NCBI RefSeq assembly: GCF_025998175.1
Contig: NZ_AP026695.1
Location: 186,001-250,000 of the forward strand
Direction: 5' to 3'
DNA: 64,000 nt
From: Nitrosopumilus zosterae
GTDB taxonomy: Archaea > Thermoproteota > Nitrososphaeria > Nitrososphaerales > Nitrosopumilaceae
Position 1 is the stretch's first letter, and each line of letters starts with the position of its first letter. The notes below the pieces were generated by a model. The model saw only the letters and a program-made list of their open reading frames with translations, was not told the DNA's origin and ran no database searches. The translations under genes were made by a program, and so were the position numbers. This document shows positions 16,835 to 49,893 of the stretch, in pieces.

Positions 16835-19800
16835 ATGAATAACGAAATAGGACGTAAAATAACTAGTCTTACATTAATGACAATTATGTTAGCCGGTGGT
16901 TTGACATTTGCTGCTCCATCTATGATGCCAGTAGCATTTGCTGCCAACGCTAACCTATTTGTTTCCGCAGAAAACTCACAGTTTGATAACTACATGTCAG
17001 GACCTCAAGTAATTGAAGTCGTGGTAATTGATTCAGACATTAATGACACAGATGAGGCAAAGGGTGAACCAGACGTTACAGTAAACGGTAAAAAACTTAG
17101 AATGGTTCAAGCCGTCGACGGTAACTGGTATGGTTACTTTGCAGACAGAAAACAAGCATCTATCGCTGACTTTACCGCTATTGGTGGTGGTACATCAGCA
17201 GCTTCAGTTCCAGCAGGCAATGGATTGGACTTTGGTACATTATGTGCTACTGGTTCAAGAACCGATGCAGCAGTTGGATTTTCAGTTGCTGAGACAGTAG
17301 GTATTGCATTACCATTCACCGGAGCTAATGGTGGTGGTTCTAACGGTACTGCAACTGGTGCAGCATTAACACTAGAATGTGGTGGTGCTAACACCGCGTC
17401 AGTAAATGGAACCATCAATGTCGTTAGAGAAGCCAAGGATCCAAACCTCACCTTAGCTGGTGATACAAATGGGCAAATTGGTCTCAACAGTACTAACGTA
17501 GATGGCTTTGATCATGTCTGGCCTTTCGTACAACTATACAATCTAAACCCAACTGGTAACGTTGTTGTTCAGTACAACAAAGGTGGTGGTGTTCAATCAA
17601 CAACACTAACTTTTGATTCTGTAGATCAATTTGCCAGTGCAGTTGTAGATAGTACAGTATATACACGTGATGCACAAGTACATGCAACTATTACTGACCT
17701 TTGGTTAAACATTGACCCAACTGATGAAGATTCTTGGACATTTGGAACTGCAAGTGGAAGCTTGAGTACAAACTACCAAGTCTTCGATGAAAACGGTCTA
17801 GCAGCCGGTGCTGGCGTTGGTGGTGGAATCATAGACATTTCCGGAAATCTCACAAACATGATGATTGAGGATAACGGTGTCTTGAGAGTAAACACCAACA
17901 CACAAGGTGCAGCTAACACAGTTTTAACCATACAAGACAATGATGACTCTATCATCACTTGTACCAATGCACAAGTAGCTACTACTTGTAGTGCTACAAA
18001 TAATGCAGGTGGTGGTCTAGCAGCAGGTACTAACCCAGTCACAATTACAGAACAAGGACCAAACAGCGGTGTCTTTGGAACATATGATGAATCAGATAAA
18101 TCCGTATTCAAAATAACCAGTAATGCCTTAAGGGGCACTTCTGCTACAATTGATTACAATGAGACACCAAAATCAATACTTGTGGGATTCGGCTTTGCAA
18201 CAATTGATATACAACCAACTGATGATGAATGGACCTCTGGTGAAGAGATTCCAGTAGTCTTAGTTGATAGCGATGCAAACAAGAACAGTAGAGTAGATGA
18301 AGATTTAGATTTAAACAACATAGATGTTGGTCTTATACCATCTCTAGCAACTGGTGATCCATTCACATTAGGTGAAGGTGATTCATCACTTAGAGTATTT
18401 GTAACAAACTCAACAGTTAACTACCAAGTAGCAGCAGCCGGTACAACCACCTCATTAGGTGTTAACACAATCGCTACTGCAAACAGTACTGGTGTTTTAA
18501 CTGTACAAAGTTTCTCTCAAAGAGGAATCTTGAATGTTACAGGTTCTGGTGCCGTTAATAACGCCCCACCAGGATTGGTAAAAGGCATCTTTATTGATCT
18601 AGAGACAACACAAGAAGAACTAGCACAAACCATAAGAGATAATAGATTGAGCACCTTCACAGGTTTCAATTTCTTCAATTATGATGTTAGATCTTTGGGT
18701 GCTACCTCTGGAACAGTAGGAATCTATCTCATTAACGATACAATGCCAATTCTAAACAATAATGGACTCTATAATGCAAACTCTACCAACAATGCTCTTG
18801 CATTAGTTGATAATGGAGCAAGCCAGGGATTCGTTAGTTTGAATGGTGCAGCAATGAATGCTGCTTTGTTTGACGATTCGACAGCTGATGCATCTACAAA
18901 CTTAGGTTTAGCTATTGTGTTAAACAACACAGGAGTTACACTTGATGCACGCGAACCAATTGTTATGGACTTCTTCTCATTTGGTTTCACGGATGATGGT
19001 TTCCAAGCAGACGAAAGAATTGCTAACCAAATCATTAGACTTGAATTAGAAGAAACAGGTGATAATACAAGTACCTTTGAAGGTTCACTTGAATATATCA
19101 TGGTTAACCAAATTAACATCAACGATGTTAACACCTATAGTGGCTTGTCTCCAATTGCCGATGATCCAAATTTCATCGTGATTGAAGACTTGACTGATGA
19201 GGATTCACCAAGAGTTAATTATCTTGACTTAGGTGGAGACGGTGTTTCAACACAAATTGCTGATCAAGAAGAAGCTCCATCTCATTCAGGAGTAGTATCA
19301 TTTGACCAAAGCTCATACAAGACTGCTGACACAGTTATAGTTACACTAGAAGACTTAGATCTTAACGTAGACTCTGATCTTATTGATATCTTTACCGTGG
19401 TTTCAACTGCTAGTGATGCAAACAGAGATACTGTTGGTAGCGGAAGTGCTGCTAACGGTACAGGTACATCTGTTACATTAACTAATGGTGACGAACTCGG
19501 TAGATTACTAGATATCACATTTGATGATGAAAGATGGACAGCAGCCAATAGTTGTGGATTAGATTCTGCAATTGATGCTGGTTTAGCCGCCACTGGTTTC
19601 ACACTAATTGAAACTGGCGTCGAAACTGGTATCTTTACTGGTTCCTTCCAAATCCCATCAGCATGGTGTAGATCAGGTGCAACAGCATCTGAATCTGCCA
19701 CCGGTCTTGACATTGAAGTCAACTATGTTGACTTTAGAGACGCATCTGGTGAAATCATCGAAGTTGGCGACTCCGCAGGAGTTCGTGCAAATACAGGATC

Positions 19801-22003
19801 CGTCAGTCTAGATAGAACAGTCTATCCAGTACCATTTGGTACACCGGCTAGATATGACACCAATACATCAAGTTCCCCAGCAAGTAGATCACTGTTCCCA
19901 ATCCACCAAACTGGAATGGATACAACAGCCGGTCTGCAGACAGGTGAATTCCTTGAAAAAGGTGGTCTGACTATCCACGTTAGAGTTAACGATCCAGACT
20001 TTGATATTTCCGCAAGTGGTGAAGATACCATTGCTCAAAATAAAGCCGGTACCACATTAGGACCTGTCAAGCTCTCTGTTATCAGAGGCGCTAGTACAGT
20101 AGTCTTAGGTTATGCTGGTGGTCCAACTGCAGTAGCAGGGGACATTGACGTTGGTGGAAACAACTCCACAACTGGTACACAAAACATTAGACAATTCGGT
20201 CCAATGGTTGAAATCGCACCAGACGCAGGAATATTTGAATCTGATATCTTAATTAGATATACTGATGGTCCAGCAAGCAGCACATGTCCAAATACAGATA
20301 ACTATGTTCCAATTGATGGCACTGCCAACAATGGTAACAATGGTTATGTGAACAGATTTGACGCCGCCCCAAGCACAGGTGATTACTGTATCCTACAAGG
20401 AGATATTCTCCAAGTAGAGTATACTGATCCAGCTGATGCTTCAGGTGATCCAAATACTGTAACGGACTCTGCTACTTTTGACCTAAGAAACGGTGTATTA
20501 CAATCTGACAAATCTGTGTATATTATCGGCTCTGACATGATCTTGACCCTCATTGAACCAGACCTTGATCTGGACAATGACCAGGCTGAGACATATGACT
20601 TGGACTTGATCGAATGGGACTCTGATGCAGCCACACTTACCATGGGTAATAAAGGTGGTTCAGCATCTAATAACGGAGCCGCATTTGACCCAGAACCACT
20701 TAGCTTTAGAGAAACAGGTGACTCTACTGGTATCTTCCAGATAGTCATCGAGATTCCTAACACTTTAGGTGGTGATAACTTAGAAAGAGGAGAAGAAATT
20801 GTTCTCGAGTATACTGACTGGGGTCCATCAGGAGCTGATTATGTTGGTAACGAAGATGAAGATGTCAACTTGACAATCTTCACTTCAAACTTTGGCGCAA
20901 CCATAGAACTTGACCAAAAAGTTTACACATGGACTGATAAAGTATACATTACTATTGTCGCACCAGATCACAACTTTGATAGTAACTTAGTTGACGAAAT
21001 CGGTGATACCGATTCTGATCCAATTAGAGTTGCTACCAGAGGATTTGATATTGACAATTACAAACTTGTCGAAACTGGTACTGATACCGGCATCTTCACT
21101 GGTGAAGTAATCCTTACAGGATTTACCCACGATGCAGATGGCGTTGATGGTAGTGATACTAATCCAAGAACTTCCGCTGATGGCACAGGTCCAACAGACG
21201 GATTCCTACAAACTGATGATGATGACGGACTTACAGTCTCCTTTGAATTCTCAGAGGATGAAACCGTAGTCGGTTCAGCACTTATCAGATGGAATATTGG
21301 TGAAGTTCAGTGGCTTGAAGCAAGTTATCCAGCAAGCGGAACAGGTGTTGTAAGAGTTATTGACCCAGACATGAACTTAGATCCAGAATCAGTCGACAAC
21401 TTCAATGTCGATGTGTGGTCTGACTCCGATGCCGGAGGTATTGACCTTACTGTAACTGAGACTAATGAGGCAACTGGAATCTTCGAAGGTACTGTGTTCT
21501 TCACAACTACTGACGAATCTTCTGGTCACAGACTCAGAGTCGCAGAAGGTGACACTGTCACCGCAGAATATGAGGACAATACACTACCTGATCCATACAC
21601 AACTGCAGATGAACTTGATATTACTGCCACTTCACTAATCGGTACTGTCGTACCACCTCTTGAGAGAGCACCAGCTGCTAACTTGAGAACAGTTGACGCA
21701 TTCGGTAACAGTTTAGATACTGTTGCAGTTGATCAACAGGTGCAAATCAGTGCTGACTTAGCAAATGGTCAGGATAGAGAGCAAGCATTTGCATACTTGG
21801 TACAGATTCAGGATGGTAACGGTGTTACAGTCTCACTAGCATGGATTACAGGTTCACTATCTGCTGGTCAATCATTCAGCCCAGCATTATCATGGATTCC
21901 AACCCAAAGTGGTAGCTACACAGCAACCGCATTTGTCTGGGAATCAGTTGATAATCCTACGGCATTATCACCACCAGTTAGCACAACAATAACTGTACAG
22001 TAA
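16835..22003 (+). CDS. Thaumarchaeal S-layer protein
   Basis: A 1722-residue exported protein, matching in size and N-terminus the large S-layer protein that covers Nitrosopumilus cells. The signal peptide runs to about residue 36 (SMMPVAFA, then ANANLF). The mature protein is a chain of Ig-like beta-sandwich repeats. Each opens with a pattern like SYKTADTVIVTLEDLDLN, and similar blocks recur near SVYIIGSDMILTL, KVYTWTDKVYITI and GVVRVIDPDMNLD. It is rich in Asp, Thr, Gly and Asn and poor in Lys, giving an acidic surface. I count eight cysteines. The C-terminal 100 residues form a CARDB-like domain (VDAFGNSLDTVAVDQQVQI) with no transmembrane anchor. Codon choice (many AAC, GGT, GAC) is unlike its AT-rich neighbours and suggests very high expression. 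Confidence 0.92.
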   Translation: MNNEIGRKITSLTLMTIMLAGGLTFAAPSMMPVAFAANANLFVSAENSQFDNYMSGPQVIEVVVIDSDINDTDEAKGEPDVTVNGKKLRMVQAVDGNWYGYFADRKQASIADFTAIGGGTSAASVPAGNGLDFGTLCATGSRTDAAVGFSVAETVGIALPFTGANGGGSNGTATGAALTLECGGANTASVNGTINVVREAKDPNLTLAGDTNGQIGLNSTNVDGFDHVWPFVQLYNLNPTGNVVVQYNKGGGVQSTTLTFDSVDQFASAVVDSTVYTRDAQVHATITDLWLNIDPTDEDSWTFGTASGSLSTNYQVFDENGLAAGAGVGGGIIDISGNLTNMMIEDNGVLRVNTNTQGAANTVLTIQDNDDSIITCTNAQVATTCSATNNAGGGLAAGTNPVTITEQGPNSGVFGTYDESDKSVFKITSNALRGTSATIDYNETPKSILVGFGFATIDIQPTDDEWTSGEEIPVVLVDSDANKNSRVDEDLDLNNIDVGLIPSLATGDPFTLGEGDSSLRVFVTNSTVNYQVAAAGTTTSLGVNTIATANSTGVLTVQSFSQRGILNVTGSGAVNNAPPGLVKGIFIDLETTQEELAQTIRDNRLSTFTGFNFFNYDVRSLGATSGTVGIYLINDTMPILNNNGLYNANSTNNALALVDNGASQGFVSLNGAAMNAALFDDSTADASTNLGLAIVLNNTGVTLDAREPIVMDFFSFGFTDDGFQADERIANQIIRLELEETGDNTSTFEGSLEYIMVNQININDVNTYSGLSPIADDPNFIVIEDLTDEDSPRVNYLDLGGDGVSTQIADQEEAPSHSGVVSFDQSSYKTADTVIVTLEDLDLNVDSDLIDIFTVVSTASDANRDTVGSGSAANGTGTSVTLTNGDELGRLLDITFDDERWTAANSCGLDSAIDAGLAATGFTLIETGVETGIFTGSFQIPSAWCRSGATASESATGLDIEVNYVDFRDASGEIIEVGDSAGVRANTGSVSLDRTVYPVPFGTPARYDTNTSSSPASRSLFPIHQTGMDTTAGLQTGEFLEKGGLTIHVRVNDPDFDISASGEDTIAQNKAGTTLGPVKLSVIRGASTVVLGYAGGPTAVAGDIDVGGNNSTTGTQNIRQFGPMVEIAPDAGIFESDILIRYTDGPASSTCPNTDNYVPIDGTANNGNNGYVNRFDAAPSTGDYCILQGDILQVEYTDPADASGDPNTVTDSATFDLRNGVLQSDKSVYIIGSDMILTLIEPDLDLDNDQAETYDLDLIEWDSDAATLTMGNKGGSASNNGAAFDPEPLSFRETGDSTGIFQIVIEIPNTLGGDNLERGEEIVLEYTDWGPSGADYVGNEDEDVNLTIFTSNFGATIELDQKVYTWTDKVYITIVAPDHNFDSNLVDEIGDTDSDPIRVATRGFDIDNYKLVETGTDTGIFTGEVILTGFTHDADGVDGSDTNPRTSADGTGPTDGFLQTDDDDGLTVSFEFSEDETVVGSALIRWNIGEVQWLEASYPASGTGVVRVIDPDMNLDPESVDNFNVDVWSDSDAGGIDLTVTETNEATGIFEGTVFFTTTDESSGHRLRVAEGDTVTAEYEDNTLPDPYTTADELDITATSLIGTVVPPLERAPAANLRTVDAFGNSLDTVAVDQQVQISADLANGQDREQAFAYLVQIQDGNGVTVSLAWITGSLSAGQSFSPALSWIPTQSGSYTATAFVWESVDNPTALSPPVSTTITVQ

Positions 22004-22020
22004 GAAAACTAGTTCACATT

Positions 22021-22040
22021 ATCCTTTTTTTCTTTTTTTT
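22021..22040 (+). terminator. Oligo-T terminator after the S-layer gene
   Basis: Two long T tracts (six or more Ts each, interrupted by a single C) begin 18 nt after the S-layer stop. Archaeal RNA polymerase terminates on such U-runs without a hairpin, so S-layer mRNA can end here. Confidence 0.55.
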
Positions 22041-22114
22041 GAATCTTCTTTAACGTAAGTTGTAGACAATTTTTCCAGAAGCAATATCTAGGAGATAATT
22101 AACAATTAATTAAA

Positions 22115-23083
22115 ATGAAATTTCAAATTCTATTTTCTATTTTGATTGTTTTACTAATTGTAAACACACCAAATTCATTTTCAGAACTGGAATTATTTAC
22201 AAACAGCAAAGTATACGCTCCATCTCATACCTTACAAGTTTATGGAAAGGGATTGCCTGAAGAAAATTTGATTATACGAATATTTGCCCCTGATGAATCC
22301 ATTGCAAAATTTGACCAGATAACCACTAAATCAGACGGCTCTTTTAATTATGGTTTGATGACTTGGCCCCAGCCATCCACAAATCTTCCTTTTGGGACAT
22401 ATACTGTGGAAGTAATCAGTACTCAGCAAAACGGTATCTCACAAAAGATTGATGTAAAATTTTCAGCCACAACAGATCTCGTTGATGTACCAGTAGAAAG
22501 AATTGTAAATACACTGGTCTTTGCCCCTGAAACTGCGGCAATAAATAACCCAATTCGAGTATTTGTACAAACTACCAGTGATGGTTTGTTAATTGGAAAT
22601 GAACCTGCGGAATTATTGGGAACAACACATGTTCATCTGCCTTCTGGAATTTCCATCCCTCTATCAAATTCATTTAAGACTCTTCATCAGGGATTGTACT
22701 ATGTTGACTATATTCCTAGAGAAGAAGGGACACATGTGTTTCATGTGGTTGCTTTTACTCAAGGAACCACATCTCATGGTTCTGCTGCAACCAATGTTCT
22801 AAGTCAAGATCTTGGTGGAATTTCAGAGCAAATAATCAAACTAAATTCAATTTTGGATGAGACATCAGAAGAGCTTGACGTTCTTAAATCTGAAATAGCA
22901 GGATTTGATACAACATTAAAACGCGCAAGTATTCAAATTGATGAAAACATTGGAACAATTTCAACATCTGTAAAATATATCACTGAGGCTTCCTCCCAAC
23001 TCAACGCACTAATGTTGCCAATTATTGCATCAATTGGATTAATTGTTGCACTGCAAGTAGCAATTCTTACCCGACGAAGATAG
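22115..23083 (+). CDS. Exported membrane protein with coiled coil and C-terminal anchor, SlaB-like layout
   Basis: A 322-residue protein directly downstream of the S-layer gene. An N-terminal signal peptide (about 1-23, LFSILIVLLIVNTPNSFS) is followed by beta-sandwich domains: residues 24-115 with VYAPSHTLQVYGKGLPEENL, and about 125-225 with PIRVFVQTTSDG and LHQGLYYVDYIPREEG. A long helical coiled-coil stretch comes next (about 228-298, LNSILDETSEELDVLKSEIA). The protein ends with one transmembrane helix (about 299-318) and a basic TRRR tail. Sulfolobales SlaB, which anchors SlaA, has the same order of parts. Function as an S-layer stalk is inference. The next gene begins 8 nt after its stop. 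Confidence 0.75.
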   Translation: MKFQILFSILIVLLIVNTPNSFSELELFTNSKVYAPSHTLQVYGKGLPEENLIIRIFAPDESIAKFDQITTKSDGSFNYGLMTWPQPSTNLPFGTYTVEVISTQQNGISQKIDVKFSATTDLVDVPVERIVNTLVFAPETAAINNPIRVFVQTTSDGLLIGNEPAELLGTTHVHLPSGISIPLSNSFKTLHQGLYYVDYIPREEGTHVFHVVAFTQGTTSHGSAATNVLSQDLGGISEQIIKLNSILDETSEELDVLKSEIAGFDTTLKRASIQIDENIGTISTSVKYITEASSQLNALMLPIIASIGLIVALQVAILTRRR

Positions 23084-23091
23084 TTATAATA

Positions 23092-26000
23092 ATGCAAGAA
23101 AAACAATTTAACTGGATGCCCAAAGCGGCCATTTTCTTTTCAATGATTTTGCTTTCATCCATATTGTCAAACTCGTATGCGACAACTGGAGATTTAATTT
23201 TAGATGATCATTCGGTTACACCTATTTTTGATTCTGAAATATTTGATATGGATTATACTTTTTTTAAAGAAAATGATTTTAAGAGATATCTGATTTTTGG
23301 CACAGACACACAAGATATTGATTTTTTAAAAAACAATTCATTGTATGGGATCCAATCTGATACTGGTTTTTTCTATGTCTCTGTTCTTTCTGAAAAATCT
23401 GTGTCTAATCTTGTAGCACAAGGTTACCATGTCATTGAGGATTACAAATTGGATTTTCATTCATCTGATGAGATAATTTCAGATTCTTCAAGAATTGGCA
23501 AGATAACAGGATCAAGTGATGCTAAAAAAAAATATGGCGCCTCAGGTAACGGAACAATAATAGCAATTGTAGACACTGGGGTTGATTTTTCAAATCCTGA
23601 CATCCAGCATTCACTTGCACGAGACAAAATCAATCACCCAATCATGCTTGATCCTGACGGACAGGGAATTGTTCTGACAAATGCTACTTTCTTTGCCTAT
23701 ATTGATGAGAATGAAATTATCAGAAATTACAGCAAACCCCTTCCGTCAGATATGACTTCATCTGTATATGTCAATAAAGACGGCGTTTTCCTTGATGTGT
23801 CTCAAGGAGGTAAGGGAAGTAAGATTCCAATTTACAATTCGTTTTTTCCACAGCTTGGCACCTCGCCAATTTTTGAAGGAATATTAGACAAAGATATGAA
23901 GATTGGAAAAGACAATAGAAATTACATAAAATCAAAAAGTGGAATATATCATCTTGGTGTAATCTATCAGGGAGCAACACAAGGACCACAAGCTAGAATA
24001 CAAGTTGTACCGGTTCTTGTAGTTGATTCGTTTATCCCTGGAATTTATGATACTATAATTTCAGATATGAGCACCTCTTGGAAAGACTACACTAGATTTG
24101 ATCTAAAGCAAGGCCAGACACCAAATTATGATTTTGATTTTACTGATGAAAAACCTATTGTGTTGGGCAGTGGTAAAGAGTTTCTAGTATTTGATTCAAA
24201 CAATGATGGAAAAAATGATTACAGTGCAGGAACATTTGGTGCACAAGTTCTTGATGTTTATGGTGTGATTAGAAACAATGTAACTGACATTGATGATTCA
24301 TTACAAGCAATAAATGGAACGATACTGCCAGCATTGGACTCGGATGGAAACTTTTTTGGTCTAATGAGCGATTTTATGGGTCATGGAACATCAAGTGCAG
24401 CTTCCATTACCTCAAGAGGTCACGAAGTATATGACATTTACAACAATACAGAAAAACATTCCATTATTGGTGTTGCACCTGATGCAAAGATTGTACCTGT
24501 AAAGGCACTCTGGTTTGGTGATACAGTTTATGGTTGGTTGTGGTCTGCAGGATTTGAAAACAAAGATCACAATTGGAAATTCTCAGGTGAGCCCAAAGTT
24601 GATATTATTTCTAACAGCTGGGGAGTTTCAACATTCCCTTCTTTTAATGCATCTCCTGGAATGGATGTGCTGTCATTGATTCTAAGTGCACTTGTGACTC
24701 CGCATTCCTTAGATGATGATTATCCCGGAATAACAATAATTTCAAGCGCAGGAAATTCCGGACATGGATACGGGACAATTGGATTGCCAAATGCATCACC
24801 ATTTGGAATTTCAGTAGGCGCTACAACTAACAATGTCTTTGTAGGGTATGGTCCGTTCAAAGACCAGCCCCGATTTGGCAATTCTACTATTTATCATGAT
24901 GACGTTGTAGATTTCTCAAGCAGAGGCCCAGGCTCCATTGGTGATCCAAAACCTGACATTATGAGCATTGGTGCACACGGTTTTACACCATCAAATGTTT
25001 TGAAAATTAAAAAAGACTCCAAGGAAGAATCTTTCTCATTATTTGGAGGTACCAGCATGGCAGCTCCATTGGTTTCTGGAAGCGCTGCAATATTGATGGA
25101 GGAAATGAGAAAACAATCTCAAGATTATGATCCATTTCTAATTAAAAACATCCTAATGTCAACTGCAACAGATCTTCAAAACGATCCATTCACTCAAGGT
25201 TCAGGCCTGATAAATGTTGAAACTGCGTTGAATTATGTTCATGGTGATGACGGAGTTTTCATAGTGTATAATGATAAATCATATGATAATATCAAAAAAA
25301 TTCTTGAACCTGCAATTGAAAATATCAATTCAACTAAGATAGGATTTGACCAGTTTCAACTTTCTTCGTCATCTCTTCCTATGACTAGCTGGTTTGGCGG
25401 ACAATTGAATCCCGGAGATAGAAGTACTGCCACTTTTACAATTAATAATCCAACTGATGAAGAACTTTTAATTAATGTAAAATCTCAAACGCTATCTCTG
25501 ATTACAAAAAATCAATATGACGGAAAAACTGTTGTACGACAACACGATTCTATCTTAAATAAAACTGATGCATTCATTCCAAACTATGTCAAACTATCTG
25601 ATGTAACCAATCATGAAAAGATTGGCGATTTCTTTGATGATCAAAATCCAATTCCAGACGAATCTGTATTAATGATAGTTAATGTGAATTTTCCATTTGC
25701 AGATTTTATGAACGGTACGTCTGACGTATACGCTGATGATCTGAAAATCTCTTCATTGTACCTTTATGATTGGCTTGATAACAATAATGACACAAAAATT
25801 ACCAGCAATGAATTATCTATGATAAATAGAGCTGGTTCATGGGGAACGGTTCAAGAGTTAAGAGTTTCAGAACCTGATAAAAAGTTTGACGGAATACCAT
25901 TAGTTGGAGTTTATCCAGTTCCAACAAGACATTCTTATTGGCTAGGTGATACAAAACAAAATTCAACTTCGATGGATTATACAATCTCTGCAAGTTATTA

Positions 26001-26904
26001 TCAAAAAGAAAAATGGTCCATGCTCTGGCCTGAATCTGAAACAATTACTGTTCCTGCAAAAGACACTGGTACCATTAATGTCACACTAATTACTCCAAAT
26101 GATTTGCAGACAGGAGTCTATCAAGGATTCCTAACTTTTGAAAGTGACAGACACACAGTTAATGCTCCAGTGTCTTTTGTAATTAAACAGCCAATAACTG
26201 AAAATGATACAACAATACTGATTCAAGGAAAACAAAGTGACGATGTTATTTATGGAAACGGATACACAAAGGGTGCATTTGACATGGTTAATAGATACAT
26301 GACAGGAGACTGGAGACAATATTATTTTGATATCCAAAACGAATCAATTAATTCTGGAGCAATTGAGCTTTCATGGACCAGTGATGACACAAATCTTGCA
26401 GTATTTGTGATGGATCCGCAAGGAAAAATAATTCAAACCAATGTACCTTCTGGTGTGTTTGGCCATTTTCTTAAATGGCCTTCACTTGATTGGCTTGGCA
26501 ATTCTATATTCAGTCAGGGAGGTGGTTTTTTTCCAGTAAAAAACAAAGACGAGACTTCAACGGTTCTTTTCATCCCAATTAATCAAACGGGTACCTACAC
26601 ACTTTTGACACATTCAACCTTGTTTGGTGGAAATTCTACAACTGAACCAATCACGCTTGCAGCTAAATTTACAAACATTTCCTCTAATATGACATCTCAA
26701 AATCAACAAATTGAATCTGAATTAGTCTCTGAAAAAGAAGCTACTTCGCCCTCTCAAATCCCTGAAACTATCATTGTTGAAAAGTATACCCTGCCTTTGG
26801 AATCTGATTCATCTTTTGGTACAGGAATTGCAATTGGCGTTGGCATTGGCATTGCGATCGGAATACTGTCTATTTTTATCATTAGACAAAAACCTCCCAA
26901 ATAA
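23092..26904 (+). CDS. Large membrane-anchored subtilisin-family serine protease
   Basis: A 1270-residue S8-family peptidase. After a signal peptide (about 1-30) and a propeptide-like region, the catalytic triad is Asp161 (IIAIVDTGVDFSNPD), His431 (MGHGTSSAASI) and Ser655 (GGTSMAAPLVSG), with the oxyanion Asn in SSAGNSGHGYG. About 270 residues are inserted between Asp and His, where typical subtilisins have a few dozen. Beta-rich domains of about 500 residues follow, and a C-terminal glycine-rich transmembrane helix (near 1243-1264) with a basic tail anchors the enzyme outside the cell. It is co-directional with, and 8 nt from, the SlaB-like gene, so processing of surface-layer or exported proteins is a plausible job. 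Confidence 0.88.
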   Translation: MQEKQFNWMPKAAIFFSMILLSSILSNSYATTGDLILDDHSVTPIFDSEIFDMDYTFFKENDFKRYLIFGTDTQDIDFLKNNSLYGIQSDTGFFYVSVLSEKSVSNLVAQGYHVIEDYKLDFHSSDEIISDSSRIGKITGSSDAKKKYGASGNGTIIAIVDTGVDFSNPDIQHSLARDKINHPIMLDPDGQGIVLTNATFFAYIDENEIIRNYSKPLPSDMTSSVYVNKDGVFLDVSQGGKGSKIPIYNSFFPQLGTSPIFEGILDKDMKIGKDNRNYIKSKSGIYHLGVIYQGATQGPQARIQVVPVLVVDSFIPGIYDTIISDMSTSWKDYTRFDLKQGQTPNYDFDFTDEKPIVLGSGKEFLVFDSNNDGKNDYSAGTFGAQVLDVYGVIRNNVTDIDDSLQAINGTILPALDSDGNFFGLMSDFMGHGTSSAASITSRGHEVYDIYNNTEKHSIIGVAPDAKIVPVKALWFGDTVYGWLWSAGFENKDHNWKFSGEPKVDIISNSWGVSTFPSFNASPGMDVLSLILSALVTPHSLDDDYPGITIISSAGNSGHGYGTIGLPNASPFGISVGATTNNVFVGYGPFKDQPRFGNSTIYHDDVVDFSSRGPGSIGDPKPDIMSIGAHGFTPSNVLKIKKDSKEESFSLFGGTSMAAPLVSGSAAILMEEMRKQSQDYDPFLIKNILMSTATDLQNDPFTQGSGLINVETALNYVHGDDGVFIVYNDKSYDNIKKILEPAIENINSTKIGFDQFQLSSSSLPMTSWFGGQLNPGDRSTATFTINNPTDEELLINVKSQTLSLITKNQYDGKTVVRQHDSILNKTDAFIPNYVKLSDVTNHEKIGDFFDDQNPIPDESVLMIVNVNFPFADFMNGTSDVYADDLKISSLYLYDWLDNNNDTKITSNELSMINRAGSWGTVQELRVSEPDKKFDGIPLVGVYPVPTRHSYWLGDTKQNSTSMDYTISASYYQKEKWSMLWPESETITVPAKDTGTINVTLITPNDLQTGVYQGFLTFESDRHTVNAPVSFVIKQPITENDTTILIQGKQSDDVIYGNGYTKGAFDMVNRYMTGDWRQYYFDIQNESINSGAIELSWTSDDTNLAVFVMDPQGKIIQTNVPSGVFGHFLKWPSLDWLGNSIFSQGGGFFPVKNKDETSTVLFIPINQTGTYTLLTHSTLFGGNSTTEPITLAAKFTNISSNMTSQNQQIESELVSEKEATSPSQIPETIIVEKYTLPLESDSSFGTGIAIGVGIGIAIGILSIFIIRQKPPK

Positions 26905-49200: not shown

Positions 49201-49893
49201 ATGAATGATTCTTTACTTGATGACGTCAAGGCACTTTTAGATAAAGATTTTGGAGATGATAGAATACTCAAGCAAATTTACCGAGCTTGTGAAAATAACG
49301 AAGTAATTAGTAATTATGAAAGAACCTATGTTCAAAAACTTGCAGAAAAACATTTAGGAAAAAGGCCCGAAATACTTCGAACACCAACAATAGAACAAAA
49401 ACCAATAACTCCTGATGTGGCGATACCCCAAACTCAATCTATCCAAAAAATGCAAACATTTCAACAAGAACCACCACGAAAATCCTATTTGAAATCAAAA
49501 AATTCGAAAATAATGTTGGGCATTACGGGTCTTGCATTGATAATAATTATCGGAGTTGCAGCATCATTTAGTTTTGATATGTCTCCAAAAGTAGAAACAC
49601 CAACCACTACTGTTCCAGTTACATTGTCCATTCAATCTGATTTATCATCTTATAACAAAAAAGATTTGATTTCAATTAGTGGTGTGTCCAACACTTCTGG
49701 GACTGTAAATCTCTCAATAGAAAATCCAAACAATGAGCTTGTATGGGCAGAACAAGTGTCCCTAAAAAGCAATGGAGCATACTCCACATTAGCTATTGCT
49801 GGAGGACAAGGATGGGAAAATTCTGGTACATATACAATCAAAGTAGATAATGGCAAAGAAACAAAATCAATTACATTTGCATTTAAAGCGTAA
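49201..49893 (+). CDS. Bitopic membrane protein with extracellular beta domain
   Basis: A 230-residue protein preceded by a strong ribosome-binding site (GGAGGG at about 49186-49191), rare in this window. Residues 1-60 form a small helical cytoplasmic domain (LLDDVKALLDKDFGDDRILKQ, EVISNYERTYVQKLAEKHLG). A Pro/Gln-rich linker follows, then one transmembrane helix (about 103-122, GITGLALIIIIGVAASFSF). An external beta-sandwich (about 135-230, LSIQSDLSSYNKKDLISISG) ends the protein. The layout suggests linking an outside binding domain to an inside helical module. The family is not recognised. It overlaps the end of the minus-strand nuclease-like gene by 11 nt. Confidence 0.7.
   Translation: MNDSLLDDVKALLDKDFGDDRILKQIYRACENNEVISNYERTYVQKLAEKHLGKRPEILRTPTIEQKPITPDVAIPQTQSIQKMQTFQQEPPRKSYLKSKNSKIMLGITGLALIIIIGVAASFSFDMSPKVETPTTTVPVTLSIQSDLSSYNKKDLISISGVSNTSGTVNLSIENPNNELVWAEQVSLKSNGAYSTLAIAGGQGWENSGTYTIKVDNGKETKSITFAFKA

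Follow-up and report, generated by a model that had tools for sequence, protein, structure and literature searches.

How the S-layer of ammonia-oxidizing archaea (AOA) is held above the cell membrane is an unsettled question, and the spacing matters because ammonium is thought to be concentrated in the gap between lattice and membrane. In Sulfolobus, SlaB forms a membrane-anchored trimer with Ig-like domains pointing toward the SlaA canopy (PMC10903991). A SlaB homolog is also encoded by N. maritimus and most Nitrososphaerota, and the N. maritimus protein was described as a minor component with a C-terminal transmembrane (TM) domain that proteomics placed well below the lattice protein NmSLP in abundance (von Kugelgen et al. 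2024, Nature; PMC11153153). The authors of that structure doubt that SlaB suffices as an anchor. Elsewhere, slaB has been scored across AOA genomes (PMC11559005), and the N. viennensis protein has been identified as A0A060HR06 (PMC8640222). The main idea of a SlaB anchor in Nitrososphaerota is already published and is not new here. By analyzing a 64,000-nucleotide stretch of the Nitrosopumilus zosterae genome (contig NZ_AP026695.1; henceforth termed the window), we add a short, two-domain form of SlaB, an apparent slaB promoter preceded by a poly-T tract, and an Ig domain at the C-terminus of the lattice protein that is conserved and recurs in other secreted proteins. A limited search of the open-access literature found no report of phylum-wide slaB synteny, a separate slaB promoter, or the shared C-terminal domain. 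The phylum-wide pairing and the candidate docking domain make attachment testable and point to a specific pair of domains that may be in contact.

A lattice protein gene and its downstream neighbor

The open reading frame at 16835-22003 (+) encodes a 1722-aa S-layer lattice protein that matches NmSLP (Nmar_1547, PDB 8c8k) over its full length (phmmer, E=0, 2349 bits) and is its ortholog. The first-pass annotation had described this S-layer protein as lacking a transmembrane anchor; indeed, because the best 19-residue stretch after the signal peptide scores just 1.33 on the Kyte-Doolittle scale, the lattice protein has none. On the same strand, 111 bp after the lattice gene, begins a 322-aa reading frame with an ATG start, 22115-23083 (+), whose coordinates and frame had already been given exactly. 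We refer to it as slaB.

Its product opens with a putative signal peptide (residues 1-23; 22115-22183), assigned from a hydrophobic helix at residues 2-15 followed by SFS/E. Two beta-sandwich domains follow, the first (D1) at residues 24-120 (22184-22474), homologous to domain 1 of SlaB, and the second at residues 121-231 (22475-22807), of filamin/Ig-like type and weakly colinear with domain 3 of Sulfolobus acidocaldarius SlaB. A coiled-coil stalk (residues 232-297; 22808-23005) leads into a conserved TM helix (residues 298-318; 23006-23068), whose best window, 300-318, has a hydropathy of 2.48, and the protein ends in the basic tail TRRR (23069-23080). The C-terminal end reads R-x-R in 30 of 31 orthologs, in the form RRR in 28 of these. 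An AlphaFold model built with the 31 orthologs (mean pLDDT 83.8) places strands at 26-116 and 131-229 and a single continuous helix at 233-321.

The periodicity of the helix is that of a coiled coil. Across residues 233-297 the strongest hydropathy period is 3.50 residues, a value reached by none of 2000 shuffles, and L, I, V or M nearly always occupies position a over a run of ten heptads. Five orthologs from two genera have a longer helix with an insertion of exactly seven residues, so that the coil register is kept. The coil proposed in the first-pass annotation therefore stands, with a length of about 65 rather than about 70 residues. Pfam alone returned only weak filamin- and Mce-like matches for the slaB product, a PEF-type motif of the kind that precedes the C-terminal helix in PEFG-CTERM archaeosortase substrates is absent, and tblastn of plasmid records gave zero matches.

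Shared ancestry with SlaB

The order of parts had been likened to that of Sulfolobales SlaB, with convergence or shared ancestry as possible explanations. The order itself (signal peptide, beta-sandwiches, coiled coil, C-terminal TM helix, basic tail) is the same, although here there are two beta domains and not three. Four independent tests agree in supporting an ancestry shared with Sulfolobus SlaB and not merely a shared shape. First, homology to characterized SlaB is detectable in sequence. When a profile of the 31 orthologs was searched against all PDB sequences, the best match was S. acidocaldarius SlaB (8qox_B, E 9.4e-5), with an alignment that begins at the N-terminus and a second colinear stretch spanning the last beta domain and the coil; 29 of the 31 orthologs also match the NCBIfam SlaB model (best E 2.4e-11). 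Second, 8qox_B ranks first among 350,542 chains in a Foldseek search with the predicted fold (E 3.7e-10). Over the full chain the TM-score is low, at 0.27, which presumably reflects differing angles between domains. Third, the search is reciprocal. A profile of 14 SlaB sequences from other lineages, two of which, at 790 and 776 bits, exceed the curated SlaB cut-off of 700, has the 22115-23083 gene as its best match in the host genome, a single contig of 1.78 Mb (E 2.4e-19; next best 1.1e-12), and hhalign aligns the two SlaB profiles over 285 columns reaching into the TM helix (P 99.5%, E 4e-23). Fourth, synteny is shared, as described below.

Convergence, with an unrelated protein of beta-sandwich, coil and TM parts coming to resemble SlaB, might account for the smaller number of beta domains, for a second domain unlike the carboxypeptidase-regulatory-like domain of other SlaBs, and for the score of the slaB product with NF040788, the equivalog model of Metallosphaera-type SlaB, which at 35.9 bits falls under the 700-bit cut-off. 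This score does mean that the slaB product is not a Metallosphaera-type SlaB. The cut-off is, however, clade-specific, because a protein with the full SlaB architecture and position (L089) obtains only 144 bits with the same NCBIfam model. Against convergence stand also the reciprocal best hits of the profiles, the end-to-end hhalign alignment, the top fold rank, the shared synteny and the intermediate homologs that a phylum-wide search found in families f2, f3 and f6. We therefore reject convergence, which we regard as extremely improbable, in favor of shared architecture by descent. The gene very probably encodes the Nitrosopumilaceae form of SlaB, an exported, membrane-held and presumably oligomeric stalk that would bind beneath the S-layer.

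D1 is a common module that several other secreted proteins of the genome carry. It is therefore not diagnostic alone, and it is the combination of parts that identifies SlaB: among the genome's proteins matching the SlaB profile, a coil with a plain TM helix occurs only in the slaB product. A second SlaB-like paralog was considered and rejected, as neither the coil nor a plain TM helix is present in the other D1-bearing reading frames examined, several of which terminate in PEF-type signals. Elsewhere in the genome (L106, L109), several secreted proteins of 266-290 aa combine a SlaB-type first domain with a PEF motif and a TM end, an arrangement typical of archaeosortase substrates. Within the window, a 230-aa reading frame at 49201-49893 (+) matches the domain-1 profile over its C-terminal 90 residues (E 1.4e-13) and contains a hydrophobic helix in its interior, near residue 104.

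Conservation of the gene pair

Of 150 Nitrosopumilaceae genomes, 127 gave a match to the slaB product and every one gave a match to the lattice protein. The first-pass annotation had named conservation of the gene pair as a check on its reading, and the pair proved widely conserved. The distance from the end of the upstream lattice gene to slaB is 69-231 bp (median 118) in 75 Nitrosopumilaceae genomes, and outside the family all 18 fetched genes of SlaB architecture have a lattice-type gene immediately upstream; in three of these the lattice-type gene is cut by the contig end with its C-terminal domain still present. The exceptions are genera g6, g8 and g15 and part of g2, where slaB is kept and the lattice gene lies elsewhere. 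A pairing that extends from Nitrosopumilaceae as far as genomes of the Sulfolobaceae type favors an early origin of the two-part S-layer in the phylum.

Among the genomes without slaB (G108 and others), most MAGs of the same genus likewise have no match to the full length of the lattice gene, which makes loss of the S-layer locus in assembly or binning more probable than loss in evolution. At one locus (L042; G018:C1, around 1043749) we observed two 410-aa fragments of the 3' part of the lattice gene, arranged as a mirror-image pair with equal match scores, which reflect either an error of assembly or a genuine inverted duplication.

Downstream of slaB, at 23092-26904 (+), lies its usual neighbor by synteny, a gene for a membrane-anchored S8 subtilase of 1270 aa (Pfam Peptidase_S8, E=6.7e-33), followed by Rieske, cytochrome b and plastocyanin genes. 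In most Nitrosopumilaceae, and also in family f2 (L070, 9150-14621), the gene after slaB encodes an S8 subtilase with a hydrophobic helix at its C-terminus, an order that recalls the stalk-bound STABLE protease of Staphylothermus. The slaB product might thus be a stalk for the adjacent protease and not for the lattice, in the way that tetrabrachion carries the STABLE subtilisin (PMC5744192), and the S8 gene follows slaB even in g6 and g8, which no longer have the lattice gene at this site; it is the more constant neighbor in the genera where the pair is broken. Yet two loci (L034, L036) have no S8 gene beside slaB and retain the adjacent lattice gene, outside these families slaB pairs with a lattice gene and no S8 gene is present, and the protease has a C-terminal hydrophobic helix of its own. 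A stalk for the protease in place of the lattice is accordingly very unlikely in our view. The slaB product could be a stalk for both.

A recurring Ig domain at the C-terminus of the lattice protein

The last 120 aa of the lattice protein (21641-22000, +) form an Ig-like domain, here termed D10 (AlphaFold, pLDDT 94.7). It matches residues 1614-1733 of NmSLP, the tenth Ig domain, which is flexible, hangs below the lattice and is unresolved in the cryo-EM maps (PMC11153153). D10 is conserved in slaB-adjacent lattice proteins from Nitrosopumilaceae to Sulfolobaceae-type genomes, the window copy being 32-38% identical to those of families f2 and f6, and three f3 genomes without a SlaB match also have no D10 match. 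We propose D10 as a candidate site by which the lattice protein would dock on SlaB.

The same domain has been given a different partner. Because SlaB is scarce and the domain is flexible, von Kugelgen et al. suggested that it may itself anchor the lattice to the envelope, lessening the need for SlaB (PMC11153153). D10 would then bind glycans, glycolipids or other envelope molecules and hold most of the lattice, with the SlaB homolog as a minor or accessory tether. The closest solved folds to the D10 model fit such a role, namely O-antigen-binding domains of Wzt (E 7.5e-5, TM 0.75) and CARDB domains, but an Ig-like fold match is not proof of glycan binding. The conservation of D10 across lineages in which the neighboring gene is slaB, and its parallel absence in the three f3 genomes, likewise speak against this reading, which we consider rather unlikely; D10 may instead dock on SlaB. 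Homology of D10 to the dimerization domain of Sulfolobus SlaA was also considered and is unsupported: PDB searches for a SlaA-type match, by sequence and by fold, brought up just NmSLP itself and Ig-like, Wzt and CARDB folds of a generic kind.

D10 also recurs in seven other reading frames of the genome (L097-L103). It is C-terminal in six, a second lattice protein (1700 aa) and proteins of ~395, 141, 318, 632 and 354 aa, the 141-aa protein consisting of little beyond a signal peptide and D10; a 651-aa protein carries it internally. D10 may be a common surface-docking domain. One could go further and picture the cell's only SlaB as a general surface receptor that docks the D10 of the lattice protein, its paralog and other secreted proteins, in which case S-layer attachment and exoprotein display would use one anchor module in AOA and their relatives. 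We raise this idea tentatively and judge it unlikely.

The intergenic region

The gap between the lattice gene and slaB holds a conserved poly-T tract and, after it, AATATCTA, which in most cases stands 32 bp ahead of the start codon. In the window the tract is TTTTTTTCTTTTTTTT (22025-22040, +), terminator-like and conserved in position. In most orthologs that have the lattice gene upstream, the tract lies near position -90 relative to the slaB start, and it is absent where the lattice gene is not upstream. The second element, CAGAAGCAATATCTA (22076-22090, +), resembles a TATA box; AATAT[C/T]TA occurs 23-41 bp (mostly 32) before the slaB start in all but three of the orthologs examined. Since this element is present also without a lattice gene upstream, it belongs to slaB. 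It has one exact copy in the genome, and none of the four near-matches examined precedes an open reading frame. These sequence features suggest that the lattice gene is followed by a terminator and that slaB is transcribed from its own promoter. Such a promoter would let slaB be made in smaller amounts, which would match the low abundance reported for the N. maritimus homolog (PMC11153153).

Between the poly-T tract and the promoter-like box, orthologs carry a TAAC-N4-GTTA inverted repeat, imperfect in the window (22051-22062). At three loci (L036, L041 and L046) it reads TAGC-N4-GCTA, with the symmetry kept. The repeat is a possible regulator site.

Proposed anchoring and comparison with known systems

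In the arrangement that we propose, the slaB product would be exported, with its C-terminal helix staying in the membrane and its RRR tail inside. It would oligomerize through the coiled coil, likely as a trimer by analogy with Sulfolobus, and its two beta-sandwich domains would face the inner side of the S-layer, where they may contact the flexible D10 of the lattice protein. As Sulfolobus SlaB is a membrane-anchored trimer facing SlaA, the slaB product should by homology span the gap between membrane and lattice, and the lattice would stand above the membrane on sparse SlaB stalks.

Sulfolobales SlaB, represented by the S. acidocaldarius protein (8qox_B) and the Metallosphaera type (NF040788), shares with the slaB product a signal peptide, N-terminal beta-sandwiches, a coiled-coil stalk, a TM helix with a basic end, and a gene position directly downstream of the lattice gene, together with detectable homology in sequence and fold. 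The Sulfolobales proteins are larger (416-475 aa versus 322 aa), with three beta domains and a longer coil, whereas the slaB product has two and lacks the carboxypeptidase-regulatory-like middle domain. S. acidocaldarius SlaB has 14 predicted N-glycosylation sequons, and the slaB product has none. The Sulfolobales slaAB genes are described as bicistronic, in contrast to the apparent separate promoter behind the poly-T tract here. Tetrabrachion and STABLE of Staphylothermus marinus resemble this locus in combining a coiled-coil stalk and beta-rich arms with an associated subtilisin (PMC5744192). Tetrabrachion, however, is one gene product cleaved in two, with a four-stranded, right-handed coil of 11-residue period that extends 70 nm, while at the locus described here the parts are encoded separately and the coil has a plain 7-residue repeat. 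NmSLP, with its tenth domain outside the resolved structure, is the lattice and not the anchor, and the lattice protein of the window is its ortholog. Closest to the slaB product are the SlaB homolog published for N. maritimus and other Nitrososphaerota, given in the published text without a gene number, and A0A060HR06 of N. viennensis: these probably form one ortholog group with it, and they have been assigned the same role.
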